Of a stretch of 64,000 bases of DNA, positions 2,814 through 63,128 are shown piece after piece. Each line of letters begins with the position of its first letter. Position 1 is the first letter of the stretch. Both the position numbers and the translations under genes were made by a program. The DNA comes from Clostridiaceae bacterium (GTDB lineage Bacteria; Bacillota; Clostridia; Lachnospirales; Lachnospiraceae), in NCBI GenBank assembly GCA_910574345.1, contig CAJSZV010000024.1, positions 1 through 64,000 of the forward strand, in the 5' to 3' direction. Below the pieces are notes generated by a model that worked only from the letters and a program-made list of their open reading frames with translations, was not told where the DNA came from and searched no databases.

Positions 2814-2821
2814 ACTGATTA

Positions 2822-2854: not shown

Positions 2855-2857
2855 ACC

Positions 2858-2887
2858 GGCCAGCCTATTGATTCCCATAGGCTGGTC
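2858..2887. promoter_or_regulatory. 11-bp inverted repeat overlapping the -35 box
   Basis: Arms at 2858-2868 and 2877-2887 pair over 11 bp with one G-T; the 8-base centre holds most of the -35 hexamer of the next promoter. On the + strand no T-run follows, so it is a poor terminator for the sulfatase gene; on the - strand it would be followed by TTTTTT but no minus gene precedes it. An operator for a dimeric repressor is the other reading. Confidence 0.4.
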
Positions 2888-2896
2888 AGTTATACT
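2868..2896 (+). promoter_or_regulatory. promoter of the nucleotidyltransferase-nahK operon
   Basis: TTGATT (2868-2873) and TATACT (2891-2896) are separated by 17 bp, a good match to the vegetative sigma factor consensus, and lie 82 bp upstream of the start codon. Confidence 0.6.
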
Positions 2897-2977
2897 TAAG
2901 TTACAGTTCACGAGGCGGGAAAAACGGATAAAAAGATGCTCCCCTGTGAACAGCATAACATGATCGGAGGTGTTCTT

Positions 2978-3910: not shown

Positions 3911-3911
3911 C

Positions 3912-5033: not shown

Positions 5034-5935
5034 TGATTCTTTTCTGACAGAAGACGGATGGAAGAGGCGTATTCTGAGGGAGTCATGTGGGTGACTTTTT
5101 TAAACTGCCTGGAAAAGTAATGAACGGAAGTATAGCCCAGACGGTCGGAAACCTGAGTAAAATTCAGCTGATTGCCGCGGATCAGTTCCTTGGCAGTGTC
5201 GATTTTCATTAGAGTGAAAAATTCCATAACCCCGCAGCCATGGAACTCTGCGAACATCTTTTGTAAGCGGGAGCGGCTTACCAGCGTGTTTTTACAGATT
5301 TTTTCGATAGTCAGCTGTTCGGTGATGTGCTCTTCCATATAACGGATGATTCGGTTGTATGTCTCATTGGGGCGTCCTAAAGAGGGGCGTCCCATATTTT
5401 GAGTGGGGACAGGAAGGGGATTGGCAAAGTAACGGCGGTACAGGTGGATTAAAAGCTCTTCCAGATAATTGCGGATCAGCTGTTCCGATCCGAAGCCGGG
5501 AGATAAGTTGTTGCGGATCAGTTCTTCCTGGTATGGATCATCTAAGCGGCCCTGGAAGGCGCGGCGGGTCTCAATAATAATCTGTGCCAACAGGGCGCTT
5601 TCCGTCTCCTGGACCGTCAGGACCTGATTTCGGAAAGCTTTCATACAGGGAGAATGACATTCAAAGGCAATGACCACCAGGCTGGGCGCTATGCGGCCGT
5701 TGGTGATAACATTGTGAAATTCATTGGGTTTATGGAAGATAATGCTGCCTCTCTTAAGAGTATAGCGTCTGTCATCCGCCACGGCGTCGATTTCGCCTTT
5801 ATCCACACAGAGTAGTTCCCAGAAATCATGGCTTTCTCCGGGAAAAGTAAAATCACTCATATAGTCAAAGTAGTGGATGGAAATGATGCTGTGGACCGAC
5901 AGAGTTGTCCGCAGGCGGGTGCATTTGTATGCCAT
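5030..5935 (-). CDS. AraC-family transcriptional regulator of the GNB/LNB locus
   Basis: A 301-residue protein with an N-terminal cupin-type sensing domain (HDFWELLCVDKGE, about 36-48, and LKRGSIIFHKPNEFHNV, about 60-76) and two C-terminal helix-turn-helix motifs: LTIEKICKNTLVSRSRLQKMF and FTQVSDRLGYTSVHYFSRQFKK (about 208-280). It sits between nahK and the GH112 gene and is transcribed divergently from the latter. Its probable targets are the TACAAAT direct repeats seen at two promoters of the locus. The likely effector is a galacto-N-biose/lacto-N-biose-derived sugar; this is inference. Confidence 0.85.
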   Translation of the reverse strand: MAYKCTRLRTTLSVHSIISIHYFDYMSDFTFPGESHDFWELLCVDKGEIDAVADDRRYTLKRGSIIFHKPNEFHNVITNGRIAPSLVVIAFECHSPCMKAFRNQVLTVQETESALLAQIIIETRRAFQGRLDDPYQEELIRNNLSPGFGSEQLIRNYLEELLIHLYRRYFANPLPVPTQNMGRPSLGRPNETYNRIIRYMEEHITEQLTIEKICKNTLVSRSRLQKMFAEFHGCGVMEFFTLMKIDTAKELIRGNQLNFTQVSDRLGYTSVHYFSRQFKKVTHMTPSEYASSIRLLSEKNH

Positions 5936-5967
5936 AGAAGAACCCCCTTAAGTTTTGATGCATAGGA

Positions 5968-5996
5968 AGTATATCACATCCTGCCATTGCCTGCAA
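5968..5996 (-). promoter_or_regulatory. promoter of the araC-family gene
   Basis: Read on the minus strand, TTGCAG (5996-5991) and TATACT (5973-5968) are 17 bp apart, 33 bp upstream of the start codon of the regulator. No equally good plus-strand promoter is seen for the GH112 gene in the 99-bp divergent gap. Confidence 0.5.
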
Positions 5997-6034
5997 GGTG
6001 ACAGGTAGGCAGGTTATCGGAAAGGAGAAAGAAT

Positions 6035-17700: not shown

Positions 17701-18000
17701 CGTGTGGCGGACAGCAGATGGGACGGTTCTTACCTGGTTTTTGAGACGAACGGTCCGGGAGAGATTGTGGTGCTGAGGCCAAAGAGTCAGGTAAAGATGT
17801 GGATTGCCATGGCTGCGGGGGCAGTGACGGGAGCGCTTATTCTGTGGATAATCGCTGCCGGAAGGGGCAAAAAGAAACAGGGAAAAGTCGGCGGGGAAGA
17901 AGAAGCCCGGACAGAGACGGCAGAAGAGGGAGAGGAAAAAGAGGAAAAGAAAGAAGAGGAAGAGGCAGAAGAAAAGGCAGAAGAGATGGGGAGAGGTTGA
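14785..18000 (+). CDS. secreted GLUG-repeat surface protein with C-terminal membrane anchor
   Basis: A 1071-residue protein. A signal peptide covers about residues 1-38 (basic start, then AVLLAAALTLSGLGSGVF). The N-terminal part has at least seven GLUG-type repeats containing GGIAG or GGITG (for example AGGIAGYNEETG, TGGIAGFNEG, LGGIAGRHSG), which fold as a beta-helix-like stack. Residues about 340-600 form a long helical, probably coiled-coil insert (repeated DQIDQMRG/DLDSMDDE-like stretches), and more GLUG repeats follow at about 610-770. A single membrane helix, WIAMAAGAVTGALILWIIAA (about 1009-1028), precedes a Glu/Lys-rich cytoplasmic tail. It is anchored in the membrane with most of it outside. 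Coupling to the MMPL exporter and TetR gene suggests a joint envelope or surface function, not known precisely. Confidence 0.75.
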   Translation: MRKKKENRNRKTAVLLAAALTLSGLGSGVFPQMEALAAPAAESAEEEEEQEEIRTEEVISITSVEEFLDFARHCVSESYSKGKMFVLETDVNLQGTEFEPIPVFAGTFDGKGHGIAGLSVHSSGSGLGLFRYVQEGAIVKDLQVQGTLAPQGSRINIGGIAGVNRGTIEGCIFGGHITGQESAGGIAGYNEETGVIKNCENHAVLTGNLKTGGIAGFNEGLIEGCTNLGEINGTDQENSGGADGQLTMGSIDLEENLRVERVNDAGGIAGLSLGTIRGCTNQAAVGYPHMGYNLGGIAGRHSGIIDECRNYGTIQGRKDVGGITGQFEPYMTVKYEEDMFGSLESQLDELSSMGDSMSSILEQTGDTASSNLDAIDSQLEKIKDIGRFYKNLYRGGTDDFDRDADLALDEIQHILDHMDLELTGWETQARYRSAQEKVKEIQKLREQMKTNYDGDINDLNALKNWLRQRKEQTEQLIKYGTELGDDLLYLATNAPGEAIGGAEAFGDDLEKLQVEVTVFTDIVRTNGDKLKGDLDSMDDEMTAALDILSGNVDTLTDDLKDNRNQIRSQKNQIQDQIDQMRGTISDGVDRAREDKDLIEDVSDLETGETQEGIIKGCVNQGKVAADFQAGGIVGIIGMETSLDPEQDLEADEERTLNVTRNMRAIVTGCINRQQIEVKNDYAGGIAGKANLGALIQNQNYGDITAEDGNYAGGITGSSAYVLRDNYNMCTIHGNNYMGGIAGWGTDVIQNYSMVSFGNREGEWIGAVAGDVDREGTIEGNVYVDEGTGAVDNITYESQAKGLGYEAFRMQDGMPEEFSRLSVEFLVDDEVVKTVYCQYGDGVKESDIPKVPQKDGYYYMWEQKDLSCIKGNEKVHAVYKAWNTTIASSDDKMPVMLVESNFYPGTSLVVREKDKDAWNGRMTVPEGYEMAGDWEYSIVQPDGAAMPEHIRVHVLAKGLPKGSLAGMAENGEIRVADSRWDGSYLVFETNGPGEIVVLRPKSQVKMWIAMAAGAVTGALILWIIAAGRGKKKQGKVGGEEEARTETAEEGEEKEEKKEEEEAEEKAEEMGRG

Positions 18001-18002
18001 TA

Positions 18003-18269
18003 ATGGGGAAAGCAGAGTACCAATGGAATGAGATCGATGAGACAAAACTTACCATTGCAGAGCGCTGCGTCTACAGAATCAGGAGAAAAGCAGTGGAGTT
18101 ATACCAAAAAGGGGACAGCGCAAAGGAGATCTTTCGTGCCACAGGCATGAGTCATACGGAGGTTCTGCGCCTGTGGAACCGGTGCTGCGCCACAGATCCC
18201 AAAACCGGGGAGTGCTGCGGCTATGAAGCTCTGGTGCCGAAGTCAAAGATAAAGAAGTTTATCCGCTAG
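18003..18269 (+). CDS. small helix-turn-helix protein, possibly a transposase N-terminal fragment
   Basis: An 88-residue basic protein starting two bases after the surface-protein stop. Residues about 22-60 (AVELYQKGDSAKEIFRATGM, then SHTEVLRLWNRC) form a clear homeodomain-like HTH of the kind found at the N-terminus of Mu/TniA-like transposases and in resolvase-type regulators. The final GYEALVPKSKIKKF also recalls the linker after such a domain. No catalytic domain follows; the stop lies inside the convergent AraC gene (11-bp overlap). It could be a small DNA-binding protein of the operon or a leftover of a longer gene. I do not know its function. Confidence 0.6.
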   Translation: MGKAEYQWNEIDETKLTIAERCVYRIRRKAVELYQKGDSAKEIFRATGMSHTEVLRLWNRCCATDPKTGECCGYEALVPKSKIKKFIR

Positions 18270-19143
18270 AACGGTCCGGATACTGTGACGGCCGCATTCC
18301 CATGAGCTGACAAAACGTGTTGGAAAAGTGATTGGGGTTTGAAAATCCAACCTCCCTGGAGATCTGGGTAATGGTCATATTCCGCTCTTTGAGAAGCATG
18401 GCCGCATATTCCATTTTGCATCTTAAGATATACTCCTTTGGGGACTGGCCCAGGCCAGAGGTAAATATCTTGTACAGATAGCTTTCGCTGACGCCGCAGG
18501 CATGGCTTACCTGGGAGACCAAAAGCGGTTCCCGCACGTTGGCGGCAATATAGCTGGTTGCCTTGTTGAGAAGAAGATCGGTGCCGTGCACGGGTTTGCG
18601 GGACTTAAGCTCACAGGGATTAAAATCTTTTCTGCGGAGCAGTTCCATAATAAGAAGCATAAAGTAACTGTGGACCTTGTGATAATATCCCGGATGCTGG
18701 CTGGCGCACTCTTCTTCAATGGTGCGGAAATAGAATTCCACAGGGGAATGCAGGGCGTGGAATACCCGTATCTTTAACGAGGTCTCCATCATGGGGATAA
18801 AGTTCTGCTCTTCATGATGAGGGTGGACCTGAAAATACAGATAGAGAAATTCCGGAAGGAGATGATCGTCTAAGCTGGAGGCATTGTAAATGGTATTGGG
18901 GGGTGTGTAAAGCACATCCCCTTTTTTAAGTATCATGGAGGTGTCATGAATCTCATAGCGGACGGACCCGCAGATGACATAAATGATTCGATGGTAAGGC
19001 AGGGTCGTGTTCCTGGCGGCACGGGGGCCGGAGGAGCGGAAGCAGCCGAAGGAGACCAGGGAGAGCTGGTACTTTTTGAGTTCCATGGACAGGGCGTCTT
19101 CGGTGAGGGCAGGGAGGAAGCTGAAATATGTTTGACGGGGCAT
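18259..19143 (-). CDS. AraC-family transcriptional regulator
   Basis: A 294-residue protein. The start at 19143 is chosen because AAAGGAG lies just upstream; the frame continues to 19233 but has no ribosome site there. An N-terminal cupin sensing domain (LPYHRIIYVICGSVRYEIHD, in pieces, and LKKGDVLYTPPNTIYN) is followed by two HTH motifs (LLVSQVSHACGVSESYLYKIF and ITQISREVGFSNPNHFSNTF, about 215-280). It is divergent from the FAD/FMN reductase lipoprotein gene, its likely target, with 118 bp between the starts. Confidence 0.85.
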   Translation of the reverse strand: MPRQTYFSFLPALTEDALSMELKKYQLSLVSFGCFRSSGPRAARNTTLPYHRIIYVICGSVRYEIHDTSMILKKGDVLYTPPNTIYNASSLDDHLLPEFLYLYFQVHPHHEEQNFIPMMETSLKIRVFHALHSPVEFYFRTIEEECASQHPGYYHKVHSYFMLLIMELLRRKDFNPCELKSRKPVHGTDLLLNKATSYIAANVREPLLVSQVSHACGVSESYLYKIFTSGLGQSPKEYILRCKMEYAAMLLKERNMTITQISREVGFSNPNHFSNTFCQLMGMRPSQYPDRSSG

Positions 19144-19196
19144 GGGAGTCTCCTTTTGACTGGAATGATTTTTGTATAAATTATATTGAAAACCGT

Positions 19197-19225
19197 ATGA
19201 CTTTATTTTACAGGAAATATATAAT
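19197..19225 (+). promoter_or_regulatory. promoter of the flavin reductase lipoprotein gene
   Basis: ATGACT (19197-19202) and TATAAT (19220-19225) with a 17-bp spacer lie 37 bp before the start codon, in the gap shared with the AraC gene. Confidence 0.5.
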
Positions 19226-19261
19226 AAAGACAAGAAATTTTTAAATAAGGGAGGATTTTTT

Positions 19262-21289
19262 ATGAAGAAACATGTTTTGGCAGTGACGCTGGCAGCGGCG
19301 CTGGTTCTTGGCGGCTGTTCGTCAGGCGCTTCATCTCAGCAGACCACAGAAGCGCAGAAGGAAACGACTGCAAAAGCCCAGACCACAGAGACTCAGGCGG
19401 AGACAGAGGAAGAGGAAGAGACCGGGAAGGCGCCGGAGGAAGTTTTGTCTTATGATGAGGTGAAAGAAGCGGACGTGGTGATCGTGGGAGCAGGAGGAGC
19501 CGGGCTGTCTGCAGCCATAGCGGCAGCCGATGAAGGGGCCGAGAGTATTATTGTCGTGGAAAAGCTTGGCAAGACCGGAGGCTCTTTAAACTTTACCAGC
19601 GGTTCCATGTCAGGAGCAATGACCGTGATTCAGGAGCTGGATGGGATTGAGGATACAAAGGAATCTTACATTGAGGATATCATGTCCAACGGCGCAGGAC
19701 TGGGCAACCGGGAGTTGATTGAGATTTTTGTGGACGAGGACGTGGATGCCATAGAGTGGCTGTGGAATCATGGTCTCAGTGAGTATACCTTTTCCGAACA
19801 AAACGGCAAAAAGAGCGTGTTTGCACCAGAACATCAGCTTTATTCCGTTCAGAGAACGTATAAGCCCAAGGCCATGGATCCGGCTAATTATAAATCAGCG
19901 GTTCATGAGATTTTGGATAAAGAGATAGCCGGGTATGACAATATTACCATTGATTATTACACGGAAGTGACAGAGCTTTTGGGCAATGAAAAAGGGCAGG
20001 TTCTGACAGCCGTAGGCTATAACAGCGACAGTAAAAAGACTGTGTGCTACCAGGCGAAAAAGGGCATTATCATGGCTACCGGCGGTTATTCCGGCAATCC
20101 GAAAATGATGGGCGAGTACGCAGTCCACGGAGACAAATATCTGGTAGGCGGTGCGGACAGCGCCGACGGCAGGGGAATCCGCATCATGCAGACTGTGGGT
20201 GCGGCGGTGGATCAGGAGAAGCTCTCTTACATTCCTACCTTTCCCATGGGTCTGGAGTTTGCTCCGGGCAAAGGCGCCATCGGCGATGTGTATATGTGGA
20301 AGGCCGGCGGCATCTATGTGAATCAGGAAGGAAAACGGTTCATCAATGAAACTCTGGATGAGGTGGTGCCCAGAGAGACTGCCTTGGAGGAGCAGACCGA
20401 TGCAGTGCAGTATAATATCTTTACAGACAAGATTATTGAAGATCTGAAAGCAGGAGGCGCTGCTTTCATGTGGGATTACTATTATGAGCCGGACAACGGC
20501 ATAGGCCATAAACTGGTTCAGTCGGCGGATACTTTGGAAGAACTGGCCGGTATCATTGGTGTTCCCGCTGACGCCTTGGTCGAAACCGTTAACGCTTACA
20601 ACAAGGCCGTGGAGGAAGGCAAAACCGACGAGTTCGGAAGAGATTTCAGCAATACGCCTACGGCCTACAGTGTGGCGGTGAATAAGATTGAAGGGGATAA
20701 GTATTATGCGGTGCCCATCAAGGCTCTGGTTGTCATGACTCTGGGCGGCGTCACGATCAACAATGATATGCAGGTAGTGGACGAGGCAGGAAACGCCATC
20801 CCTGGTTTATATGCGGCCGGAGAGGTCGTAGGAGGAATCTGGGGGAAATTCGTATCCGGCGGTACAGGGGTTATGGGTCCCGTTGCCTTTGGACGGATTA
20901 CGGGGCGCAATGTAGTGAATATGGAACCGGCAGAGGGACAGCCTGTGAAGGAAGCCTCCTTTGTCTTAAAGGAAGAGCTGTTTGAGAAGAAAGAGGCCGC
21001 TGGAGAAAAGTATGACATGAGCGGCATTAATGACGGCACTTATGAGGCAGTTGTGGATGGACAAAACGGGGATATGACCGTTCAGGTGGTTGTGGCGGAA
21101 GGAAAGATCAGTGAAGTGACTGTGGTGAGCAGCCACGAGACGGAAAATATCGCAGCCCCTGCCATAGAGAAGGTTCCCGCAGCCATTGTGGAACAGAACA
21201 GTCCTGATGTGGACGGTGTGACGGGAGCCACCCTTACCAGCGGAAGAATTATGGAAGCGGTTAAACAGTGCCTTGATCAGGCAAAATAA
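19262..21289 (+). CDS. extracellular FAD/FMN fumarate-reductase-like lipoprotein
   Basis: A 675-residue flavoprotein. The signal peptide ends in the lipobox LVLGGC (Cys19), so the protein is anchored on the outer face of the membrane after a Thr/Glu-rich linker. The FAD_binding_2 domain starts with ADVVIVGAGGAGLSAAIAA (about 74-92) and ends with YAAGEVVGGIWGKFVSGGTG. The C-terminal FMN_bind domain (about 590-675) contains DGVTGATLTS, the threonine site to which ApbE-type transferases attach FMN covalently. Such exported flavoproteins reduce fumarate, urocanate or related enoates using electrons from an extracytosolic flavin/quinone chain. The electron acceptor is unknown; there is no heme-binding CXXCH. 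Regulated probably by the divergent AraC gene; a strong terminator follows. Confidence 0.85.
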   Translation: MKKHVLAVTLAAALVLGGCSSGASSQQTTEAQKETTAKAQTTETQAETEEEEETGKAPEEVLSYDEVKEADVVIVGAGGAGLSAAIAAADEGAESIIVVEKLGKTGGSLNFTSGSMSGAMTVIQELDGIEDTKESYIEDIMSNGAGLGNRELIEIFVDEDVDAIEWLWNHGLSEYTFSEQNGKKSVFAPEHQLYSVQRTYKPKAMDPANYKSAVHEILDKEIAGYDNITIDYYTEVTELLGNEKGQVLTAVGYNSDSKKTVCYQAKKGIIMATGGYSGNPKMMGEYAVHGDKYLVGGADSADGRGIRIMQTVGAAVDQEKLSYIPTFPMGLEFAPGKGAIGDVYMWKAGGIYVNQEGKRFINETLDEVVPRETALEEQTDAVQYNIFTDKIIEDLKAGGAAFMWDYYYEPDNGIGHKLVQSADTLEELAGIIGVPADALVETVNAYNKAVEEGKTDEFGRDFSNTPTAYSVAVNKIEGDKYYAVPIKALVVMTLGGVTINNDMQVVDEAGNAIPGLYAAGEVVGGIWGKFVSGGTGVMGPVAFGRITGRNVVNMEPAEGQPVKEASFVLKEELFEKKEAAGEKYDMSGINDGTYEAVVDGQNGDMTVQVVVAEGKISEVTVVSSHETENIAAPAIEKVPAAIVEQNSPDVDGVTGATLTSGRIMEAVKQCLDQAK

Positions 21290-53954: not shown

Positions 53955-54584
53955 TTGAAAACATTTCTCAAACCATTAAGTGCCCATGAGGAGCGAGAGT
54001 GCCTGGAACGCTTAAAAGAAGGCGACCAGGAAGCCCGTGCGGCACTGATAGAACATAATATGCGCCTGGTGGCCCATGTGGTGAAAAAATATCAGTATAC
54101 GGATTATGAGACGGAAGATCTTCTGTCTGTGGGGACCATCGGACTCATCAAGGCAGTCAACACCTTTAACATGGACCGGGGCTCCCGCCTGGCTACCTAT
54201 GCGGCCAAGTGCGTGGAGAATGAGATCCTTATGCTCCTTCGGGCCCACAAGAAGTATTCAAAAGAGGTATCCCTTTATGATCCCATCGGAGTGGATAAGG
54301 ACGGGGAATCCGTCAGCCTTGTGGACGTGATTGAGATGGAGACAAAGGATACTTTGGAAGACATGATTCTTGATCAGGATATAAAGGAACTTTACGGCGC
54401 CTTTGAAACATGCTTAAAACCTACGGAAAAACAGGTGGTGAGGATGCGGTACGGACTCTTCGGGAGCAAGGAGTATACCCAGAGGGAGATCGCAGCGGTG
54501 CTGGGGATATCCCGGTCTTATGTGTCGAGGATTGAGAAAAAGGCGGTGGAGAAGCTGCGGGCGGGGATGGAGTGTTTGGGGTAG
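53955..54584 (+). CDS. sigK: sporulation sigma factor SigK
   Basis: A 209-residue sigma-70 factor active in the mother cell late in sporulation. LKPLSAHEE, IEHNMRLVAHVVKKY, LLSVGTIGLIKAVNTFN, RLATYAAKCVENEILM and VSLYDPIGVDKDGESVSL are SigK marks; region 4 ends with QREIAAVLGISRSYVSRIEKKA. A TTG start after AGGTGG is used. In-frame sequence before it holds a stop at 53925, so there is no N-terminal pro-sequence. The gene is intact, but its last 66 coding bases are repeated at 61955 after the accessory island. Confidence 0.9.
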   Translation: MKTFLKPLSAHEERECLERLKEGDQEARAALIEHNMRLVAHVVKKYQYTDYETEDLLSVGTIGLIKAVNTFNMDRGSRLATYAAKCVENEILMLLRAHKKYSKEVSLYDPIGVDKDGESVSLVDVIEMETKDTLEDMILDQDIKELYGAFETCLKPTEKQVVRMRYGLFGSKEYTQREIAAVLGISRSYVSRIEKKAVEKLRAGMECLG

Positions 54585-54601
54585 GAAAATTAGAATGGAG
54601 A
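54519..54601 (+). repeat. attachment-like direct repeat, copy A (3' end of sigK)
   Basis: 83 bases from the end of sigK through 17 bases beyond its stop. Copy B (61955-62037) has the same length and differs at 7 positions (about 92% identity), with a 30-base identical core. The two copies bracket the accessory island. Confidence 0.8.
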
Positions 54602-54647
54602 TAACGTGAAGAGACCAGAAAAAGGCTTTTTGTGTTATCTCTGTTTT
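54598..54647 (+). terminator. sigK terminator
   Basis: GAGATAAC (54598-54605) pairs with GTTATCTC (54634-54641) across a long loop (with AAAAAGGCTTTTT inner pairing), followed by TGTTTTT. Confidence 0.7.
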
Positions 54648-54675
54648 TGATTTATATTTTGATTTGTAATTGTAT

Positions 54676-54704
54676 TTGGCAAATAATGGTTTTAATGATA
54701 TAAT
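54676..54704 (+). promoter_or_regulatory. promoter of island operon 1
   Basis: TTGGCA (54676-54681) and TATAAT (54699-54704) with a 17-bp spacer, close to consensus, 56 bp upstream of the first island gene. Confidence 0.75.
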
Positions 54705-54759
54705 GAAAGACATAGAACCCATGTTCTCATAAACTACTTCCGAAAAAGGAGACAGAAAT

Positions 54760-56733
54760 ATGGCTATAGGTTGGAATTTTCCTAGCAACAATTATGGGAC
54801 TCTCAATGGTATCGGCGAAGCAGGCATAGAAACTTTTAAAGGAACGCCATACCGTTCTTTAGCCAGAGAAATCTGTCAAAATTCTCTGGATGCCAGAATG
54901 AGCGAGGACAAGCCGGTTATTGTAGAATTTTCTTACTGTGAGATTCCCATGTCAGTAGTGTGGGGATACGGTGAACTAAAGGATGCCATAGAAAACTGCC
55001 TGGATTTTTGGAAGAAGCAGAAGAACAAAAAGACCGTGGATTTTTTCAGAAAAGCAGTCAAAGTGATCAGACAGGAAACAATACCTATCCTCAGAATCAG
55101 TGATTTTCATACCACCGGATTATTAGGCTCTGCCCAGGACTATAATACACCATGGCAGAATCTGGTGAAAGCTTCTGGTGTTTCAGATAAAGGAGATGGT
55201 TTAGGCGGAAGCTTTGGTATTGGCAAGTCAGCGCCGTTTGCTTGCTCGGACTTAAGATGTGTATTTTATGCTACCAGAGATAAAGAGGGGATAGAAGCCA
55301 CCCAGGGAATTGCAAGACTTGTTTCTTTTGCTGTGAAAGATCGCGCTGCGAAAAATGGGTTTTTCAAAAAGGAACAGGATATGCTTACTACCGGAATAGG
55401 GTATTATGGTGAAATGGTAAAGAATCGCGCCATACCGGAATGCCGTACTTTGGACAGGGATTTTTTACGAAAGAAGACAGGAACCGATGTATTTGTTTTG
55501 GGATTTAAGAATCAAAAAGACTGGGAAAAAGAGATCATCGCATCGGCTTTGGATGACTTTCTTATTTCTATTTATTTTGACTATCTGGTTGTAAAAATAG
55601 GTGAAACCATCATTTCAAAAAAGACGCTGCCCAGGATGGTTGAAGAGTTTAAGGAAATTGCACCAATGGCTTATAATTATTATCAGGTCCTTGTTTCGCC
55701 GGATACGGATGTGCGGGAGGAAGACTATGGAGACTTAGGGGCAGTCAGGCTGTATATTTTAGTACAAAACGGTCTCCATCGCGGGATACTTATGAGCCGG
55801 AGCAATGGTATGAAGGTATTTGATCAGAAGAACTTTCCCAGCGCTATTCAGTTTGCCGGAATCTGTATTTTAAAAGATAAAAGGATTAATTCTTATTTTA
55901 AGGAAATGGAAAATCCAAGACACGATGCATGGGAGCCGGAGAGGCATTCACAGCCTGGGGAAGCGAAAAAAACGCGGCAGGGATTATTTCGGTATATGAA
56001 AGAGGCTGTGTTGGAATTGGGCAGGAGAACCACGGCAGAGGCAGTCGATGCAGAGGGGATGGGAGAGTATCTTCCCGATGAAGAAATTCCGGATAATCAA
56101 GGCCAAAATCATGAGGATATCACAGATGTGACAAAAACCATAGACTTAAATCTATCGTCTCTACAATATGGACAAAAAGGCTTCGAGTTTGTGTCAGGCG
56201 GCCAGGAGGAGAGTACAGAGGAAGAGATGGGGGAATCCGAAGAAATGTATTTTGGAGGAAAAGGAAGAAAAGACTATGGGGAAGAACAGCCCAATATGAC
56301 AGAAGGCGGGGAAGGATACGGAGCAGGCCCGGGTATGGGGCCGGGAGTCAATGGCAATGGTGTCAATCCTGTCTGGGGCGGGGAACCGTCAAAAGGAGAA
56401 AAGGCAAAAGTAAGGAAAAGGGTGGAAATACATACCATGTCCGTCCGGCTGATACTCCTTGACGAGAGGAGGAACCGGTATCGGCTAAGCTTTATTCCAG
56501 AACGGACGGCCGGGAATGCATATCTTGAGCTGAATCTTTCAGGGGAACAGGGAAGCCTTACAGTAAATACCAGCCAGGCGGTTGACTGTACTACAAAAGA
56601 ACCGTTGATTTCGAAAGATAATTTAATCTACATACAAGATATTGCCATTTCCGGCAAGAGAACCGTGGAGTTTAATCTTGATTATGGGGAGAAGAGTTCT
56701 TTGGAGGTGAGGCTGTATGGATATAAAGCATAA
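54760..56733 (+). CDS. GHKL-type ATPase protein (MORC/Hsp90-like), island operon 1
   Basis: A 657-residue protein with an N-terminal GHKL (Bergerat) ATP site: N-box EICQNSLDA with Glu37 and Asn41, G1 box DFHTTG (Asp115-Gly120) and G2 box GDGLGGSFGIGKSAPF (about 145-160). A second large part (about 230-400) probably is the transducer domain; then comes a low-complexity Glu/Gly/Pro-rich linker (about 425-555) and a C-terminal beta domain. Not a histidine kinase (no phospho-acceptor His domain) and not MutL. Such proteins act as ATP-driven clamps or sensors. Gene overlaps the next one. More AT-rich than the core genes; likely horizontally acquired. A phage-defence role is inferred from context. 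Confidence 0.75.
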   Translation: MAIGWNFPSNNYGTLNGIGEAGIETFKGTPYRSLAREICQNSLDARMSEDKPVIVEFSYCEIPMSVVWGYGELKDAIENCLDFWKKQKNKKTVDFFRKAVKVIRQETIPILRISDFHTTGLLGSAQDYNTPWQNLVKASGVSDKGDGLGGSFGIGKSAPFACSDLRCVFYATRDKEGIEATQGIARLVSFAVKDRAAKNGFFKKEQDMLTTGIGYYGEMVKNRAIPECRTLDRDFLRKKTGTDVFVLGFKNQKDWEKEIIASALDDFLISIYFDYLVVKIGETIISKKTLPRMVEEFKEIAPMAYNYYQVLVSPDTDVREEDYGDLGAVRLYILVQNGLHRGILMSRSNGMKVFDQKNFPSAIQFAGICILKDKRINSYFKEMENPRHDAWEPERHSQPGEAKKTRQGLFRYMKEAVLELGRRTTAEAVDAEGMGEYLPDEEIPDNQGQNHEDITDVTKTIDLNLSSLQYGQKGFEFVSGGQEESTEEEMGESEEMYFGGKGRKDYGEEQPNMTEGGEGYGAGPGMGPGVNGNGVNPVWGGEPSKGEKAKVRKRVEIHTMSVRLILLDERRNRYRLSFIPERTAGNAYLELNLSGEQGSLTVNTSQAVDCTTKEPLISKDNLIYIQDIAISGKRTVEFNLDYGEKSSLEVRLYGYKA

Positions 56734-57586
56734 ATTGTATCCGTATCCGGTGCTTATCTCGGAAGCTGACGATTATGTTAAAAGTACATTTGCTTTCCAT
56801 GTCCATGTAGAAAAGGGGATTCGGGAATTAAAGTTTCATTTTGAGATGGATTTAAAAAATGATGAGATGGCTGCTTTGATTAAAGAAGGGCTGGCAGAAT
56901 TTCTGGTCCATATAGAGTGCCCTCGTACCTGCTACCGCAGCATTGTTACATCTGATAATAAGGATTTTGGAGAAAGAATATTGGAGAAAAAACTAAACGG
57001 AAGGGTTTCTCTGTGCGGTTTTGTTGTGGCAAAAGTAAATCTGGAAAAATATCAAAACTCAGATTTCAACAGGGATTATAATGGAATGAGTTTTGATATT
57101 GACAGAGGAAGCGTTTTGGCTATTGGAGGTCAGTATAATCTTGACATTATAAAAGAGACAGATGACTTGGCCAAGGTACCTTCCATTTTTACAATCTGCA
57201 GGTATGCGGCAGATATGGATAAAAGTATGAGGATTGATATGGATGGGGAAAAGATCACAGTGGCATTGTCTGATGAGAGTTTTCAAAATCATAAGATACT
57301 ATGTGGTATGCCCTCATACCTGCCAATTTTTCATGGAATGATTATTGTTCCGGCGCTGATTTATGTACTGGAAACATTGCGCAGGGAAGGGGTTGAAGAG
57401 TATGAGTCCCGGCGATGGTTTGCCGGCATCCGTAAGGCTCTGGCCAGATATGACATACCATTAAACTGCGATACTCTAAATGATATGGCCTCCTATGATC
57501 TTGCGCAAAAGTTATTGGATCTGCCTATAGACAGGGCGCTTCAATCAGTCATCACCATGGGAGAACGCTGTGAGGAGGAAGAGTAA
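56717..57586 (+). CDS. unknown protein of island operon 1
   Basis: A 289-residue protein with no domain I recognise. It starts inside the ATPase gene (17-bp overlap). A beta-rich first half (YPVLISEADDYVKSTFAFHV in parts, KFHFEMDLKNDEM) and a helical second half are suggested by the residue pattern. No signal peptide or membrane helix is seen. Its tight coupling suggests a complex with the ATPase and the next gene product. Confidence 0.6.
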   Translation: MDIKHKLYPYPVLISEADDYVKSTFAFHVHVEKGIRELKFHFEMDLKNDEMAALIKEGLAEFLVHIECPRTCYRSIVTSDNKDFGERILEKKLNGRVSLCGFVVAKVNLEKYQNSDFNRDYNGMSFDIDRGSVLAIGGQYNLDIIKETDDLAKVPSIFTICRYAADMDKSMRIDMDGEKITVALSDESFQNHKILCGMPSYLPIFHGMIIVPALIYVLETLRREGVEEYESRRWFAGIRKALARYDIPLNCDTLNDMASYDLAQKLLDLPIDRALQSVITMGERCEEEE

Positions 57587-57587
57587 A

Positions 57588-58373
57588 ATGGTCATTCATT
57601 TTATGAAAGAGGACTGCCTTGCAGCGCTGAAAGTGAATGTAAAAGGCAATCTGAAACAATACGAGAACCTTACAAATGAATGGATATATGAATTTTTTGA
57701 GGGAGATACCCCATTTGCGGAATACAAGGTACCTGTAGAATCCATTCAACTGGATACAGGCCAATCCGGTGAAAAAGAAAAAGGCAGGCAGGATGTGGGG
57801 AATGCGATTCGGCTGTATAGCGCCATGAAAAATTTGTCCGATACCCAGGCCGCAGATGAGCGCCTTTGGGCGGGATTGTGCCATGGAGATTTTTGGACAT
57901 ATATGAACAAACGGTGGGAAGGGTTTAAGCCCTCAAGAGATCCGGTATCCAGTATTTTGTGGAGATATTTTTTTAATGGAAAGAGCAGTGTAAGAAGGGC
58001 TCTTTTCAGAAATACCTTGTCCCGTCTGTGGTGGCTTGGACGGCTTACTTATGATTCGGAGCGAAAGGATCCTTTTGAATTGACCCGTTATTGGGAAGAG
58101 GATTTTGCCACAAAGTCCCTGATCCTTTTTTCCAGCAACTATATGGGAAATCCAAAGCTGACCCAAGGACTTATTTCGGCGCTTATGGAACTGGATAAGC
58201 AGGGATTTGCTTATGGGTCTGGCAAGAGGGAGGTTTATTATACCGCCAGTCAGTATCTGAATGTTTTTGGTGGGACTCATATACTGGATTATTTTACTGC
58301 TGATGAGATCAGAGAAAGGGTTTTATATTATATGCGGGGGCTGGCGGGCGGGAAAGTTCCAAACAATACGTAG
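57588..58373 (+). CDS. DUF6339-like protein of island operon 1
   Basis: A 261-residue protein starting one base after the upstream stop; ATG 57588 is preferred over GTG 57570 because AGGAGG lies between them. TQAADERLWAGLCHGDFWTY and RRALFRNTLSRLWWLGRLTY are the patterns that recall the DUF6339 family. No catalytic motif is obvious. Third and last gene of the operon. Confidence 0.6.
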   Translation: MVIHFMKEDCLAALKVNVKGNLKQYENLTNEWIYEFFEGDTPFAEYKVPVESIQLDTGQSGEKEKGRQDVGNAIRLYSAMKNLSDTQAADERLWAGLCHGDFWTYMNKRWEGFKPSRDPVSSILWRYFFNGKSSVRRALFRNTLSRLWWLGRLTYDSERKDPFELTRYWEEDFATKSLILFSSNYMGNPKLTQGLISALMELDKQGFAYGSGKREVYYTASQYLNVFGGTHILDYFTADEIRERVLYYMRGLAGGKVPNNT

Positions 58374-58559
58374 TTATTTTATATAGCTTTTGTAATAATC
58401 ATAGGATTGAAAAAATGCATCCTCAATAGAGTCTGCCCAACCGAAGCCGTTGTTGGAGGGAGACTTAGAATCTTCCTCTTTTATGATACACCAGAAATAA
58501 CGGAAAGTATTATTAATTTTTTCGGGTTCGAGATGGATTTCTAATCTGAATCTGGTCAA
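58374..58559 (-). CDS. small minus-strand protein between the two island operons
   Basis: A 61-residue frame starting at TTG 58559 after GGGGTG. TRFRLEIHLEPEKINNTFRY and FGWADSIEDAFFQSYDYY have the look of a conserved small protein. Its stop abuts the stop of the DUF6339-like gene. It could be a regulator or antitoxin of one of the modules, or not a gene. Confidence 0.4.
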   Translation of the reverse strand: MTRFRLEIHLEPEKINNTFRYFWCIIKEEDSKSPSNNGFGWADSIEDAFFQSYDYYKSYIK

Positions 58560-58621
58560 AATAATCACCCCACGAAATAGTATATGCAGGATATCAAAAA
58601 CTATGTAAGGAGTTAAGCTAA

Positions 58622-59896
58622 ATGCTGTCAGAAAAGTATAGAAATGAACTGGATAAACTGATAGGGATTGCCACCAATTATCGGGATGGAACATTAAGCA
58701 GATCTTTGTTTATGGATGTCATTTTTTCTCTGCCAGAAATAGACAGAAAGACGGAACTTTGTGAGAATTATATCGTTGATAAGGGGGTGCAGTTGGTAAG
58801 TGGTGATGATGATGTGGAGGATGTAAAAGAAGAAGGGGATTACGCAGAACTGATTAAACCCTATGATACATCCAAGATAGATATTTCACCGAAGCCTCTG
58901 TCACTGGACATGATTCTTGCACGATTAGAAAATGACGAGATTGATTTGATGCCGGATTTTCAAAGAAAAGGCGGATTGTGGAAAGGAATTCAAAAAAGCC
59001 AGTTAATAGAGTCTTTGCTGCTTCGGATACCTTTGCCAGCATTTTATTTTGATGGAAGCAATAACAACAGATGGGTCGTGATTGACGGCCTTCAGAGACT
59101 GACGGCGCTGAAAGAGTTTTTTATAGATAAGACTTTAAAACTATCAGGATTGGAGTTTTTAACAGATTTAAACGGAATTGGTGTGGAGGATATGCCAAGA
59201 TCCTATATGAGAAGAATGAAGGAGACGCAAGTTATTACTTACATTATAAATCCCGGAGCGCCTGTGAACTTGAAATATAATATTTTTAAACGTATCAACA
59301 CTGGTGGGCTGGAACTGGAACCTCAGGAAATCAGACACGCTTTATGCCAGGGATTTGCCACAAAATATTTGAAAGAGCTTGCTAATGAAGAGATATTTAA
59401 GAAATCCACAGGATATTCCGTAAAAACAGACCGCATGCTGGATCGGGAGTTTGTTCTTCGATTTCTTACATTTTATGAATTGGGTGTATCGGAATATAAG
59501 GGTTCTATTGATTTGTTTTTAAATTCAGGAATGGACTATATCAATAAAAATTATTATGAGTCTTATGGCGAGGATATACGAAAATTATTTATTATGGTTT
59601 TAAATACCAGTATGAATATATTTGGAAAATTTGCATTCAGACGTATGCCGGATTTAGATAAAAGAAGGCCAATCAGCAAGGCGTTATTTGAAACCTGGAC
59701 AAGTATTCTGGCCCGTTATTCCAGGGAGGATTTGTATGTATTGGAACACAAGGGAGAAGTGATAATCGAAAGATACCGGATTATGTGTTCTGAAGATGAA
59801 GAGTTTATTGAGTCCATTGGGAGCGGAAAAGTTTCGTCAGTAAAAAAGAGGTTTGAAAAAATAGGAGGACTCATAGAAAAGGTGGTTAAGCTATGA
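58622..59896 (+). CDS. DUF262 (GmrSD-N/ParB-like) protein, island operon 2
   Basis: A 424-residue protein with a DUF262 domain: PDFQRKGGLW (about 111-120), IPLPAFYF (about 136-143), IDGLQRLTAL (about 154-163) and KRINTGGLELEPQEIRHAL. The D-G-x-Q-R motif is the NTPase/nuclease-type active site in GmrS and SspE-like proteins. DUF262 proteins often restrict modified phage DNA. No HNH (DUF1524) domain follows, so a nuclease partner would be needed. It overlaps the ATPase gene by four bases. Confidence 0.8.
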   Translation: MLSEKYRNELDKLIGIATNYRDGTLSRSLFMDVIFSLPEIDRKTELCENYIVDKGVQLVSGDDDVEDVKEEGDYAELIKPYDTSKIDISPKPLSLDMILARLENDEIDLMPDFQRKGGLWKGIQKSQLIESLLLRIPLPAFYFDGSNNNRWVVIDGLQRLTALKEFFIDKTLKLSGLEFLTDLNGIGVEDMPRSYMRRMKETQVITYIINPGAPVNLKYNIFKRINTGGLELEPQEIRHALCQGFATKYLKELANEEIFKKSTGYSVKTDRMLDREFVLRFLTFYELGVSEYKGSIDLFLNSGMDYINKNYYESYGEDIRKLFIMVLNTSMNIFGKFAFRRMPDLDKRRPISKALFETWTSILARYSREDLYVLEHKGEVIIERYRIMCSEDEEFIESIGSGKVSSVKKRFEKIGGLIEKVVKL

Positions 59897-60963
59897 TTGA
59901 GAGAATGAAATTAAAAAACTTTAAGTGCTTTGAGGAATTGGATCTGATGCTTCATAAACTTAATGTGTTTTCCGGGCTTAACGGAATGGGAAAGTCCACG
60001 ATTATGCAGTCAATACTTTTGCTGAAACAGTCGGAGCAGCAGAATTGCCTGCCTGACAGCGTCTGCCTTAATGGAGAGTATGTGAATTTAGGGATGGCCC
60101 AGGACATTTTATACGAGTATGCCAATGATGAATCTATAGTGCTCCAACTATCAGAGGGAGAGAAAAGGTTTGGCGCAAAGATTAAATACAGGATGGACTT
60201 TGACATGCTGGAAACGGAATGTATGGGGGATTATGGTGAGATTTCTCTTTTCAGGGAACATTTTGAATACCTCAATGCAGAGAGGAAGGCTCCTCAGGTC
60301 ATCTATCCGAAATCCAGTTCTCATGTAGACTTTAGGGCACAATTAGGAATTAACGGGGAATATACGGTTCATTATCTGTCTAAATATCAGGATCATGATG
60401 TGGAATTTTATGGTGAAAGGAAATCTTTGAAAGAAGCAGTACAGTTTTGGCTTAATGAGATATCCCCTAATGTGAAGTTTGATGTTTCTCAAATTGAGAA
60501 CACAGATCTGGCAAAGCTGGGATTTTATTATTTTGATAAGTCGAAAAGCAGAACATTCAGACCTACTAATGTAGGATTTGGAATTTCTTATGTTTTGCCG
60601 GTGATTGTGGCTCTGCTGAAAGCCTGTGAAGGAAGTATTCTGATGCTGGAGAATCCGGAGGCCCATCTGCATCCGAGAGGACAGAGAAAAATGGGAGAGC
60701 TGATTGCGCTCTGTGCTTCAAAAGGAGTTCAGATTTTTTTGGAAACTCACAGCGACCATATTTTAAATGGGATACGAATTGCCGTGAAGCAGAAAGTACT
60801 AAAGGGAGATCAGGTGGGATTATTTTACTTTTCTAAAAATCAGGAATATGATAAAACCGTTCATTGTGTAGAAACTCCGCAGATTTATGATAATGGCCGG
60901 CTTGATTATTGGCCGGACGGATTTTTTGATGAATGGGAAAAGGCATTGGATGAGATTATTTAA
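59893..60963 (+). CDS. AAA/ABC-type ATPase of the DUF3696 kind, island operon 2
   Basis: A 356-residue SMC-like ATPase. Walker A is GLNGMGKST (28-36), the signature region is TNVGFGISYVLPVIVALL (about 225-242), and Walker B is ILMLENPEAHLHPRGQ with the D-loop His (LETHSDHILNGIRIA). The C-terminal NGRLDYWPDGFFDEW is the DUF3696 mark. Such ATPases are the motor/sensor in several defence systems. Overlaps the DUF262 gene. Confidence 0.85.
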   Translation: MIERMKLKNFKCFEELDLMLHKLNVFSGLNGMGKSTIMQSILLLKQSEQQNCLPDSVCLNGEYVNLGMAQDILYEYANDESIVLQLSEGEKRFGAKIKYRMDFDMLETECMGDYGEISLFREHFEYLNAERKAPQVIYPKSSSHVDFRAQLGINGEYTVHYLSKYQDHDVEFYGERKSLKEAVQFWLNEISPNVKFDVSQIENTDLAKLGFYYFDKSKSRTFRPTNVGFGISYVLPVIVALLKACEGSILMLENPEAHLHPRGQRKMGELIALCASKGVQIFLETHSDHILNGIRIAVKQKVLKGDQVGLFYFSKNQEYDKTVHCVETPQIYDNGRLDYWPDGFFDEWEKALDEII

Positions 60964-60981
60964 AACGGAGGTACTGATGAT

Positions 60982-61923
60982 ATGCAGATGATCTTCAATG
61001 AACTTTCATTGATTGAAAAGGAAATGGATGAAAATCAGGCAGCACAGATATTTGAACAGTTTATCAGTACTTATAGCGAAGCGGTAAAGAAAAAGAATGG
61101 GTTTGACAGGGGGATTTTAACGAGTTTGGATTTCAACTCATTAACTTTGGCAAAGGGATTTCATGTATCAAAATGGCGTAACCATATAAAGGACAGGGAT
61201 ATGCTCCGGCGGTTTTTGGATATGTGCGACAGACAGATTGTGGTAGGCTTTTGTCAGGATGAATCAGAACTGGTCTGCGAAAAAGGGACAGGAAAGGGAC
61301 TTCTTGCAGCATATGAGAATTCGGCTTTCTCTATTAGCTTTACTTATGATTCTTATTGGAAAGCATTTAAAATACCTTGCAGATATTATTCTCTGATAGA
61401 GGATGCGGAGATTTCTGTACAGATTTATAATTTATCAAACCCAGCTCAACTAGAAGAGCATTTTGAGAGTATTGAGGAGATTAAGAAGAAGGAAATAACA
61501 GAAATAAATACGCCTGAGCAGCTTCTTGACAGGCTGGACAGTCTGTTTCCCTCATTAATATTTCATGAGGTTGCATTGAATCAGCTTAAAAGCGAAGTAC
61601 AGGCCTATCATATTCCGATCGTATGCAGAAAGCTTATGAGCCTGGAGCGATATTTTTCAGAGTGGGACGGAGGGAAATTTGATGAGATCGCATTTCCGCC
61701 AAAGAGTGTTTCACCGCAGTCAAAAGAGACCCTGAAAAGATTTAAAAAAGAACATACCTTTTCTTTCCCAGAGGAACAGATAGTAGTGAGTTATCATATT
61801 AGATATACAGGGAATGTACCGGGAAGAATTTATTTTCATCCGGCGGAACGGCTTAAAAAAGCATATATCTGCAGTTTGACAACAAAACTTCCGACCGTAT
61901 CAGAACCGAAGATGCATATTTGA
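60982..61923 (+). CDS. unknown protein of island operon 2
   Basis: A 313-residue protein 18 bases after the ATPase gene. It begins with a helical segment and contains FHVSKWRNHIKDRDMLRRFLDMCDR (in parts, about 61-85). No catalytic motif, membrane helix or signal peptide is recognised. By position it is the candidate effector or adaptor of the DUF262/DUF3696 module. It ends 31 bases before the second sigK-end repeat. Confidence 0.65.
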   Translation: MQMIFNELSLIEKEMDENQAAQIFEQFISTYSEAVKKKNGFDRGILTSLDFNSLTLAKGFHVSKWRNHIKDRDMLRRFLDMCDRQIVVGFCQDESELVCEKGTGKGLLAAYENSAFSISFTYDSYWKAFKIPCRYYSLIEDAEISVQIYNLSNPAQLEEHFESIEEIKKKEITEINTPEQLLDRLDSLFPSLIFHEVALNQLKSEVQAYHIPIVCRKLMSLERYFSEWDGGKFDEIAFPPKSVSPQSKETLKRFKKEHTFSFPEEQIVVSYHIRYTGNVPGRIYFHPAERLKKAYICSLTTKLPTVSEPKMHI

Positions 61924-61954
61924 GAAATTTTTTATCCCTAACTTGACAGGAGAG

Positions 61955-62037
61955 TATGTGTCCAGGATTGAGAAGAAGGCAGTGGAGAAGCTGCGGGCGG
62001 GGATGGAGTGTGCTGGGTAGGAAAATCAGAATGGAGA
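61955..62037 (+). repeat. attachment-like direct repeat, copy B (displaced sigK 3' end)
   Basis: In frame it still encodes YVSRIEKKAVEKLRAGMEC-A-G-stop, the C-terminus of SigK, but no sigma factor gene precedes it. Most differences from copy A in the coding part are silent. It marks the right end of the island. Confidence 0.8.
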
Positions 62038-62118
62038 GAAAACGAAAAAAATTTCCATCAATTAGGAAGAAATATAAACAAAACATAAAGAAAATAAAAA
62101 TAATTCATAAAAAACTAA

Positions 62119-62300: not shown

Positions 62301-63128
62301 ATGAGAATCAGCAAAGTAATAAATAATAACGTCTTAAGCGCTGTAGACGATACCGGATCGGAAGTGGTGGTCATGGGAAAAGGCATTGGCTACCACATGA
62401 AGAAGGGGATGGAGATCCCTAAGGAAAACATCGAAAAAATTTTCCGTCTGGAAAGTCCGGGAGCGGTGAGTAAGTTCAGGGATCTGCTGGAGAAGATGCC
62501 TTTGGAACATCTTCAGATTTCCGCGGAGATCATTGAGTATGCCAGGAATGTGCTGAACCGGAAGCTGAACGAGAGTATTTATCTTACATTGACAGACCAT
62601 ATTAATTTTTCCATTGAGCGGTTTGAAAAGTGTATGATGTTCAGCAATCCCTTAATTCGGGAAGTGAAGAGTTTTTATAAGCAGGAATACCTGGTGGGGG
62701 AATATGCCATTGCCCTTATTGAGAAAAAACTGGGGATTCGGCTGCCTGTGGACGAGGCAGCCTCCATCGCTCTTCACATCGTCAATGCGGAGTACAACAT
62801 TAAGATGCGTGACACCATTGATATCACCAATCTGATACAGGAGGTGCTGGGCATCATCCGCTCCTATTTTTCCATGGAGCTGGAAGAGACGTCCATAAGC
62901 TATGAGAGGCTCATTACCCACTTGCGGTTTTTGGCGGAGCGGATCTACTGCAAGGAGATGCTGGGCGGTGAGATCCCGGAGTTCTGTGAGATGATCGCCA
63001 GGCTTTACCCGGAGGAATATCAGTGCAGTCTTAAGATCCGGGATCATATACAGAAGACATATGAGCACTATGTAACTGATGAGGAAGTATCATATTTAGC
63101 CGTGCATATCAAACGGGTGCGGGTATAA
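62301..63128 (+). CDS. BglG/LicT-family transcriptional antiterminator
   Basis: A 275-residue protein: N-terminal RNA-binding CAT domain (1-56; ISKVINNNVLSAVDDTGSE) and two PTS regulation domains with conserved histidines (TDHINFSIERF about 99; ALHIVNAEYN about 162; LITHLRFLAERI about 209; AVHIKRVRV at the end). It binds the RAT just upstream, controlling its own operon in response to PTS phosphorylation. Confidence 0.93.
   Translation: MRISKVINNNVLSAVDDTGSEVVVMGKGIGYHMKKGMEIPKENIEKIFRLESPGAVSKFRDLLEKMPLEHLQISAEIIEYARNVLNRKLNESIYLTLTDHINFSIERFEKCMMFSNPLIREVKSFYKQEYLVGEYAIALIEKKLGIRLPVDEAASIALHIVNAEYNIKMRDTIDITNLIQEVLGIIRSYFSMELEETSISYERLITHLRFLAERIYCKEMLGGEIPEFCEMIARLYPEEYQCSLKIRDHIQKTYEHYVTDEEVSYLAVHIKRVRV

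Follow-up and report, generated by a model that had tools for sequence, protein, structure and literature searches.

An island between two copies of the sigK 3′-end in a Lachnospiraceae bacterium and its putative relationship to sigK-interrupting elements with serine recombinase triplets

The duplicated sigK end and the island between its copies

The 64,000 bp stretch of DNA analysed here (the window: positions 1–64,000, forward strand, of contig CAJSZV010000024.1, Clostridiaceae bacterium assembly GCA_910574345.1) carries a 7.4 kb island at sigK, which encodes a sporulation sigma factor. The 3′-end of sigK was present twice, as copy A (54519–54604) and copy B (61955–62040), which shared 78 of 86 nucleotides (91%; direct repeat D1) at an offset of 7,436 bp. 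The original prediction had given this duplication as 83 bp reaching 62037; the duplicated gene end is real, and its length was corrected to 86 nucleotides, ending at 62040. D1 was by far the longest of the 36 direct-repeat families between 52 and 64 kb (20 listed; the next ≤30 nucleotides). A 121-base query of the window's own genome (5.6 Mb, 106 contigs) returned copies A and B as the sole strong matches (E values 8e-58 and 5e-28; next 0.3). These two results ruled out a chance origin of the repeat. The features of the locus, all on the plus strand, were as follows.

53955–54584, +: sigK, 209 aa, its end supplied by copy A; Sigma70_r2 and Sigma70_r4 (Pfam)
54519–54604, +: copy A of the sigK 3′-end (left; imported in the model proposed below), direct repeat D1
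54587–54653, +: terminator-like hairpin and T run directly after sigK, at the cassette left end (minimum free energy (MFE) −24.7, z −4.5)
54760–56733, +: PDC-M33A, 657 aa (PADLOC E 2.9e-215; no Pfam match)
56717–57586, +: PDC-M33B, 289 aa (PADLOC E 1e-97; no Pfam match)
57570–58373, +: PDC-M33C, 267 aa, DUF6339 (PADLOC E 1.6e-80; PF19866)
58622–59896, +: NsnA, 424 aa, GmrSD_N domain, a GmrSD-type nuclease domain (PADLOC E 8.8e-122; PF03235)
59893–60963, +: NsnB, 356 aa, AAA ATPase with DUF3696 (PADLOC E 4.3e-119; PF13175, PF12476)
60982–61923, +: NsnC, 313 aa (PADLOC E 3.7e-48)
61930–61954, +: P arm, the conserved right end of the element, TTTTATCCCTAACTTGACAGGAGAG; 12 right ends have the same or a similar arm
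61955–62040, +: copy B of the sigK 3′-end (right, chromosome side), direct repeat D1, with the licT leader next
62301–63128, +: licT/BglG-type antiterminator gene (named by eye and by homology within the comparison), right chromosomal flank

As originally predicted, copy A completes sigK, which is intact and not split by the island, and the differences between the copies are mostly silent. Eight nucleotides of the 86 differed; in the coding part these gave silent changes at codons 191 (S), 195 (K) and 197 (A) and an amino acid replacement at codon 208 (L to A). The window sigK had a single close match in its own genome, the runner-up being 45% identical. The crossover of the island would lie at the TA at 54519–54520. 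The Sigma70_r4 match in the window SigK covered residues 153–203, and codon 189 falls inside it. The earlier contrast with skin, the element that interrupts sigK in other species, had rested on use of the 3′-end; the 3′ part of the gene is indeed used, but the crossover would be inside sigK, at codon 189 and within Sigma70_r4. The G+C content of the island was 40.5%, compared to 50.2% in the left flank and 45.2% in the right flank, and no tRNA or tmRNA that could have served as a target was found within the window.

The six open reading frames (ORFs) of the island ran in one direction, in two blocks that corresponded to two PADLOC modules, PDC-M33ABC and NsnABC, each with its components A, B and C side by side in that order. 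PDC-M33 and Nsn are family labels; judging from these matches, a role in anti-virus defence is likely for both modules. None of the six proteins matched a recombinase (serine or tyrosine integrase), relaxase or phage family in Pfam. A 106-aa ORF between the modules (58374–58694, minus strand) had no PADLOC or Pfam match, and a literature search on the PADLOC names of these systems returned no match. In one congener, G010 (G numbers denote genomes), M33ABC with 88–93% identity followed sigK, on a contig that stopped before a right arm could appear.

Right arms, empty sites and chains of units in relatives

The best 80 of 546 sigK loci were compared with the window (L numbers denote loci). Analysis of the right-hand copies of the gene end revealed them to be preceded by one conserved arm (consensus TTATCCCTAACTTGACAGGAGAG / AATTTTTTATCCCTAACTTGACAGGAGAG) and then TA, with some ends variant. 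The order arm, TA, sigK end was found at 12 ends in six genomes, with the same or similar arms. When 35 sequences were searched with the gene end only, seven copies without an attached sigK were found (one in the window, five in G015 and one in G005). The arm preceded all seven, six of them with ≤1 mismatch in the 23 nucleotides before TA, and the variant arm, at 5190 in G015, had five mismatches in the 29-nucleotide pattern. Arm searches added five ends in three further genomes. Two of these were in Bacterium 1XD42-76 (G331, identified through identical match coordinates as the genome of L069), two were in the genome of L100, and L087 had one. The exact 17-nucleotide core of the arm occurred six times in the 26 genomes of the genus (own included), always before a sigK end. 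With ≤2 mismatches there were 16 matches in these genomes. Seven preceded a sigK end, namely the six exact cores and a single core that differed at two positions; the remaining nine likewise differed at two positions, were each followed by unrelated sequence and were rejected as sigK-end arms. Among 397 family genomes drawn evenly, the 23-nucleotide arm with two mismatches allowed was present in two, the window's own and G331, and the arm was found within three mismatches in the genomes of L069 and L100. The exact arm patterns were not found in viral_contigs. From TAT to stop, the gene ends in the units measured 63 coding nucleotides, except for 81 at 5190 in G015.

The original prediction had called for a search of relatives for an empty sigK site and for other cargo at the same spot, and both were found. 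Five of the 80 loci had licT downstream of sigK on the same locus, and in four of these sigK adjoined licT with one gene end: one congener (L042, in G016) and three Hungatella relatives (L047, L049 of H. effluvii and L050 of H. hathewayi). At the fifth, L078, approximately 1.9 kb, partly N, lay between the two genes. In the window, copy B was followed by a licT leader of the same kind as in the empty-site loci. The adjacency of sigK and licT was not universal among congeners: licT was on another contig than sigK in G015, G006, G024, G010 and G009 and lay 12.7 kb from it in G022. The absence of licT beside sigK was therefore not used as evidence. By the model proposed below, copy B would be the old (native) end, as it adjoins the licT leader; this assignment is less certain than earlier stated. 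The 3′ untranslated region (UTR) after the stop codon, GGAAAATYAGAATGGAGA, was common to copy A, copy B and a cassette left end in 1XD42-76, and because of this resemblance copy B may be the scar of an earlier cassette.

That the element brought a replacement gene end, as had been predicted together with site-specific insertion, was supported by the empty sites, by the other cargo and by an element end located exactly at the repeat start, and also by sigK genes of other genera. The DNA identity of these genes to the window sigK was compared in nine blocks up to codon 188 and in the part after it (the last 63 coding nucleotides), for loci picked for alike SigK ends, which illustrate and give no frequency estimate. 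L069 (1XD42-76) showed 59–78% identity in the nine blocks and 89% after codon 188, L058 showed 56–83% and then 92% in the last block, and L100 showed 48–70% and then 79%. In all three the last 63 coding nucleotides were thus more window-like than the rest of the gene; the SigK of L100, with its imported-type end, was 58% identical to that of the window. Ends taken as native showed 53% (L049), 55% (L075) and, in the congener L042, 79% identity to the window end. L058 and L087 sigK had 40 mismatches in the first 560 nucleotides, and the L058 end was of the imported type; the sigK end beyond the L087 element read KALSKLREKFEER.

Several units stood in a row in some relatives. On contig C9 of the congener G015 (the contig of L044), sigK (60662–60097) was followed by four co-oriented gene ends, at 37446, 5190, 4335 and 716. 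These form a chain of four units of approximately 22.6, 32, 0.86 and 3.6 kb; a further gene end was present on C71. Bacterium 1XD42-76 had two gene ends 3.0 kb apart, and in the genome of L100 the arm with another gene end occurred 10 kb beyond sigK. The cargo differed from unit to unit and included genes of restriction type. After sigK, 1XD42-76 encoded Vsr, a HEF_HK histidine-kinase-like protein and a response-receiver protein; its contig C26 carried a C5 methylase gene before the first arm and a 3.0 kb unit with an HNH protein and an AAA-ATPase/PD-(D/E)XK protein. Beside a recombinase triplet in G015 (see below) were genes for a CARF protein, a PRTase, ThyX, an N6 methylase and an ORC-CDC6-like protein, and five further G015 proteins had no PADLOC match. 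The 32 kb unit contained NusG-like and sugar-transferase genes, so the cargo of sigK units is not solely defence. The L100 unit (L100:10771–20470) was filled by a type I-E CRISPR-Cas locus, for which PADLOC returned Cas3 (in two ORFs), Cas8e, Cas7e, Cas5e, Cas6e, Cas1e and Cas2e-DEDDh. Its CRISPR array, directly before the right arm, was short, with a 61-nucleotide period and two identical spacer-repeat stretches. An intact cse2 was not seen, the plus strand between cas8e and cas7e containing only ORFs of <100 aa.

The repeat taken alone would be compatible with a local duplication of the sigK end and a later, unrelated insertion of defence genes. Several genomes, from at least three host lineages, had the same arm, gene end and position with cargo that differed, and we consider this explanation scarcely credible.

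Additionally, one or both of two genes, for an AAA-ATPase/PD-(D/E)XK protein and for a Uma2-family nuclease, recurred beside sigK ends in several genomes (L123:9649–12443, L197:2637–5126, L058:11061–11636 and L125:2597–3172); the 562-aa protein of L197 and the 191-aa protein of L058 were identified with Pfam, and those of L123 and L125 were named by eye. G006, G009, G010 and G022 were not counted as proven members, as other DNA followed sigK and no right arm was seen there. The same applied to the sigK contig of G005, which was counted via its arm on C227 only.

The hairpin directly after the window sigK was compared with the sequence after other gene ends (z from 60 letter shuffles each). After copy B the values were weak (MFE −5.3, z −1.5), and the hairpin was not present there or at the G016 empty site. 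A strong hairpin (z −2.6 to −5.8) followed eight of the 13 other imported-type ends examined, namely those at 37446, 4335, 716 and on C71 in G015, those of G005 and L058, and both C26 ends of 1XD42-76. Hairpins also occurred at sigK of G006 (L040) and at the left arms of G015 and G024, and not at the L087 left arm.

Interrupted sigK genes and the serine recombinase triplet

In L087, G015 and G024, sigK homology ended right after TAY and a shared left arm, CTGTTATNATAGGGATAAAG, followed. No sigK end was located directly behind this arm, and the interruption point corresponded to sigK codon 189. The interrupted reading frames ended in unrelated residues, with the loss of more than a quarter of the Sigma70_r4 match (153–203). 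The next-best sigK match in each of the three was 46% identical, which is the level of a paralogue. Because sigK is split and the next-best match is only at this level, these three should need excision to make SigK, by analogy with skin. The earlier contrast with skin needs correction here too: in three genomes an element with the shared left arm interrupts sigK unrepaired, as skin does. L078, L085 and L086 at first looked truncated at residue 193; their ends were found to be intact, and they were dropped.

L087 (CAJTGE010000013.1) contained a complete element of 7,478 bp from TA to TA. In order, it consisted of the left arm, a methyl-accepting chemotaxis protein gene, three tandem serine recombinase genes, the right arm and the sigK end. 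The recombinases (567, 562 and 520 aa) all had Resolvase and Recombinase domains (PF00239 and PF07508), the first two also had a zinc ribbon, and the stop codon of the third gene was inside the right arm, so that the triplet abutted the arm. No conjugation genes were seen by eye among the listed ORFs. A second triplet, 64, 53 and 51% identical to that of L087, was present in the first unit of the G015 chain; other recombinases in the compared loci showed ≤46% identity to the L087 triplet. In the 26 genomes of the genus, the middle recombinase had a match at triplet level only in G015 (53%), the others being ≤39%. The original prediction had stated that no recombinase is present. This is true of the island, whereas a triplet that is likely to be the recombinase exists in relatives.

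The two arms of one element formed an imperfect palindrome around TA, with 16 of 24 positions matching in L087 and 18 of 24 in G015. Other offsets gave 4–10 positions, and of 200,000 letter shuffles eight (L087) and none (G015) reached the observed value; the arms had been chosen by eye before the count. A serine integrase would be expected to have an attP of this kind, with P arm, TA and P′ arm forming a palindrome. In the G005 unit, the 24 nucleotides before the right-end arm matched the end of the third L087 recombinase gene with one mismatch, as a remnant of that gene would. The middle recombinase was not found in G005, the contig of which stops at the right end of the unit.

Analysis of viral_contigs with the middle recombinase revealed five stretches that fit a pattern, none of them a close relative, and its best plasmid match was 32.5%. 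The island likewise had no near match among the plasmid and phage records searched. A phage or plasmid origin was rejected, as arm, middle recombinase and island lacked a close viral or plasmid counterpart in these records. The window's own genome had 38 PF07508 matches, none on the window contig, and G015 had 50. Other serine recombinase triplets were noted in the own genome (G000:C34, approximately 15400–20350, and G000:C33:38700–43490) and on C108, C128, C22 and C8 of G015.

Further interruptions of sigK were observed. In L097 (JALEWG010000188.1, approximately 1–6050), sigK was interrupted at approximately codon 189–191 by a stretch of about 5.5 kb, after which the sigK end followed. This insert encoded one serine recombinase, with 40% identity over 375 aa to the first member of the triplet, and had ORFs that resemble aroE/aroD by eye; it seems that a second recombinase family uses the same sigK spot. 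In L126 (G013:C26; 2010–2354 and 13232–13504), sigK was split at approximately codon 91 by a 10.9 kb stretch with a PF07508 recombinase (337-aa frame). Its 3′ part also departed from the sigK frame, at approximately codon 191, where the left sequence was that of L097, and this sigK may be interrupted twice. The sigK match stopped at query base 275 in L137 (G025), whereas in L134 (G008) and L136 (G020) it ran to the end of the contig; these loci perhaps have additional interruptions, upstream of codon 189.

An ordinary tyrosine-integrase genomic island at the 3′-end of the gene, with the integrase lost, is a very improbable explanation of these data. Such islands typically carry a replacement gene end that starts at the crossover, as seen here; but the recombinases of both elements that share the arm here are serine recombinases, and in three genomes codon 189 is the point at which the target is split, its end not being repaired. 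None of the six island proteins matched a tyrosine integrase (no genome-wide tyrosine integrase search was made).

The main rival to site-specific insertion is spread by homologous recombination, in which an incoming sigK end recombines with the resident one and the shared arm reflects common ancestry of the donor segments. The 63–86 nucleotides of near-identity plus flanking DNA could suffice for this, the window cassette has no recombinase, and both window copies share 3′ UTR sequence. Against this, unrelated loci have their boundary at the same TA, as do the sigK interruptions without a gene end at the left junction (L087, G015 and G024), the arms are palindromic around TA, and serine recombinases abut the arm in L087. 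We regard homologous recombination as unlikely.

Proposed mechanism and relationship to known elements

We propose, with a probability of about 0.78, that the window island is a non-autonomous, recombinase-less 7.4 kb cassette inserted site-specifically in sigK at codon 189, and that it belongs to a family with autonomous and cassette forms. The crossover would be at or near the TA of TATGTG; serine integrases join their sites at a central dinucleotide. The autonomous form would have an imperfectly palindromic attP (P arm – TA – P′ arm) and three tandem large serine recombinases, and its insertion into attB (sigK left half – TA – sigK end) would split sigK, which would work only after excision, as with skin. 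In the cassette form, the segment from the crossover to the left end of the element would contain a copy of the sigK 3′-end, and the site of the cassette would be P – TA – sigK end. Recombination of this site with attB at TA would give a left junction of the form sigK left half – TA – imported end and a right junction of the form P – TA – old end; these predicted junctions are exactly those of the window. Insertion of a cassette would thereby swap the gene end for an equivalent one, keep sigK intact and rebuild the insertion site; as the left junction would again be a full attB, the tandem chains would be explained. The left-end hairpin, a putative terminator, would shield the cargo from sigK transcription. 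The triplet would act on these sites, and it may also accept the P – TA – sigK end site of cassettes. The window cassette itself would move only with a recombinase in trans or by recombination between gene ends.

Several observations weigh against this proposal. The cassette form requires an enzyme that joins attB with an attR-like site, and single phage serine integrases are not known to do so. There is no recombinase inside the window island, and a search for one in trans, as the original prediction had advised, did not find a recombinase of the triplet type in the own assembly (97% complete; best match 34% for the middle member and 45% for the first). The triplet was found at sigK in only two genomes (L087 and G015), and in G015 it is separated from the right arm by 6.5 kb of other genes. 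G024 shows the left arm only, as its contig ends there, and neither an excised circle nor reads were observed. The arm was not found within three mismatches in the genomes of L058, L088 and L071. Among the five loci picked for alike SigK ends (L058, L069, L071, L088 and L100), the last block was not outstanding in L088 (46–72%, then 71%) and L071 (59–79%, then 71%); their SigK tails were nevertheless alike as protein. The hairpin was missing at five of the 13 imported-type ends (G015 5190, L069, L100, L088 and G449 C35) and present at two ends taken as native (L087 right and L220). Several short partial sigK-end matches were also present, at G008:C89, G012:C222, G025:C39 and G331:C26:17923.

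In the staphylococcal and enterococcal cassette chromosomes (SCC and ECC), the target gene stays intact and cassettes occur in tandem. The window target is likewise intact, with direct repeats at both ends of the island, and several units stand in a row in relatives. The further comparisons draw on the available parts of four papers (PMC6222049, PMC5025042, PMC5595907 and PMC4701971). ECC at rlmH is described as an insertion in the 3′ region of a conserved gene with direct repeats at its ends, variable cargo and the large serine recombinases ccrAB (PMC6222049); the gene 3′ region as target, the repeats, the variable cargo and, in relatives, serine recombinases are shared with the sigK elements. 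Unlike SCC/ECC, the target is sigK and not rlmH, the crossover lies approximately 60 coding nucleotides before the stop codon, relatives have a triplet and not a ccrAB pair (compared with Ccr by description), sister elements split the target, and the att sequence is another one (ECC core TATCATAA; PMC6222049).

The skin elements of B. subtilis and C. difficile differ in site and orientation, and excision of that of C. difficile involves CD1231 with a directionality factor (PMC5025042). Like skin, the sigK elements include a large-serine-recombinase element in sigK, and L087, G015 and G024 have an interrupted sigK without another close match. The site is codon 189, in the 3′ part, and may differ from the known skin sites. 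Unlike skin, there are three recombinases, and the window form leaves sigK uninterrupted and carries defence genes without a large serine recombinase. The gin element in gerE of B. cereus is a non-phage intervening element with three serine recombinase genes, in which girC lies apart from girA-girB and GirC and GirX perform the reaction (PMC5595907). The likeness to gin is that of a non-phage element in a sporulation gene with three serine recombinases, the triplet being compared by description; the target gene differs, and no replacement gene end is given for gin in the available part of PMC5595907. Streptococcal integrative and conjugative elements (ICEs) with triplets have three co-oriented serine integrases, gene-disrupting insertion and 2–8 bp repeats, with mutT, traG and hsdM as targets (PMC4701971). 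L087 similarly has three adjacent serine integrases near one end, whereas the G015 triplet is 6.5 kb off. Unlike these ICEs, the target is sigK, L087 has no conjugation genes by eye and the window island has no integrases; captured-end cassettes and tandem stacking are not described in the available part of PMC4701971.

The combination of site, captured end, splitting and repairing forms and defence cargo did not appear in the available parts of the four papers. Among the literature matches listed (titles and abstract starts; subscription journals were mostly outside the scope), there was no description of cassettes at the sigK end. By comparison with these systems, the island may work like SCC/ECC cassettes combined with skin/gin elements. 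Whether these elements amount to a new class of sigK cassettes in Lachnospiraceae we judge to be evenly balanced. In such a class, a skin-like triplet element would have captured its target end and so created a landing site that does no harm and renews itself. Defence modules, type I-E CRISPR-Cas among them, would be collected there in tandem and passed between genera, the SigK end being replaced each time.

This interpretation joins two kinds of element that are usually kept apart, the interrupters of sporulation genes (skin and gin) and the cassette chromosomes of accessory genes. If true, it would provide a precise address at which to seek defence genes in gut spore formers and a carrier for a CRISPR-Cas locus, as well as a natural case of a recombination site built from the end of a host gene. 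It would also mean that a sporulation sigma factor has had its C-terminal, DNA-reading part replaced by horizontal transfer in several lineages.

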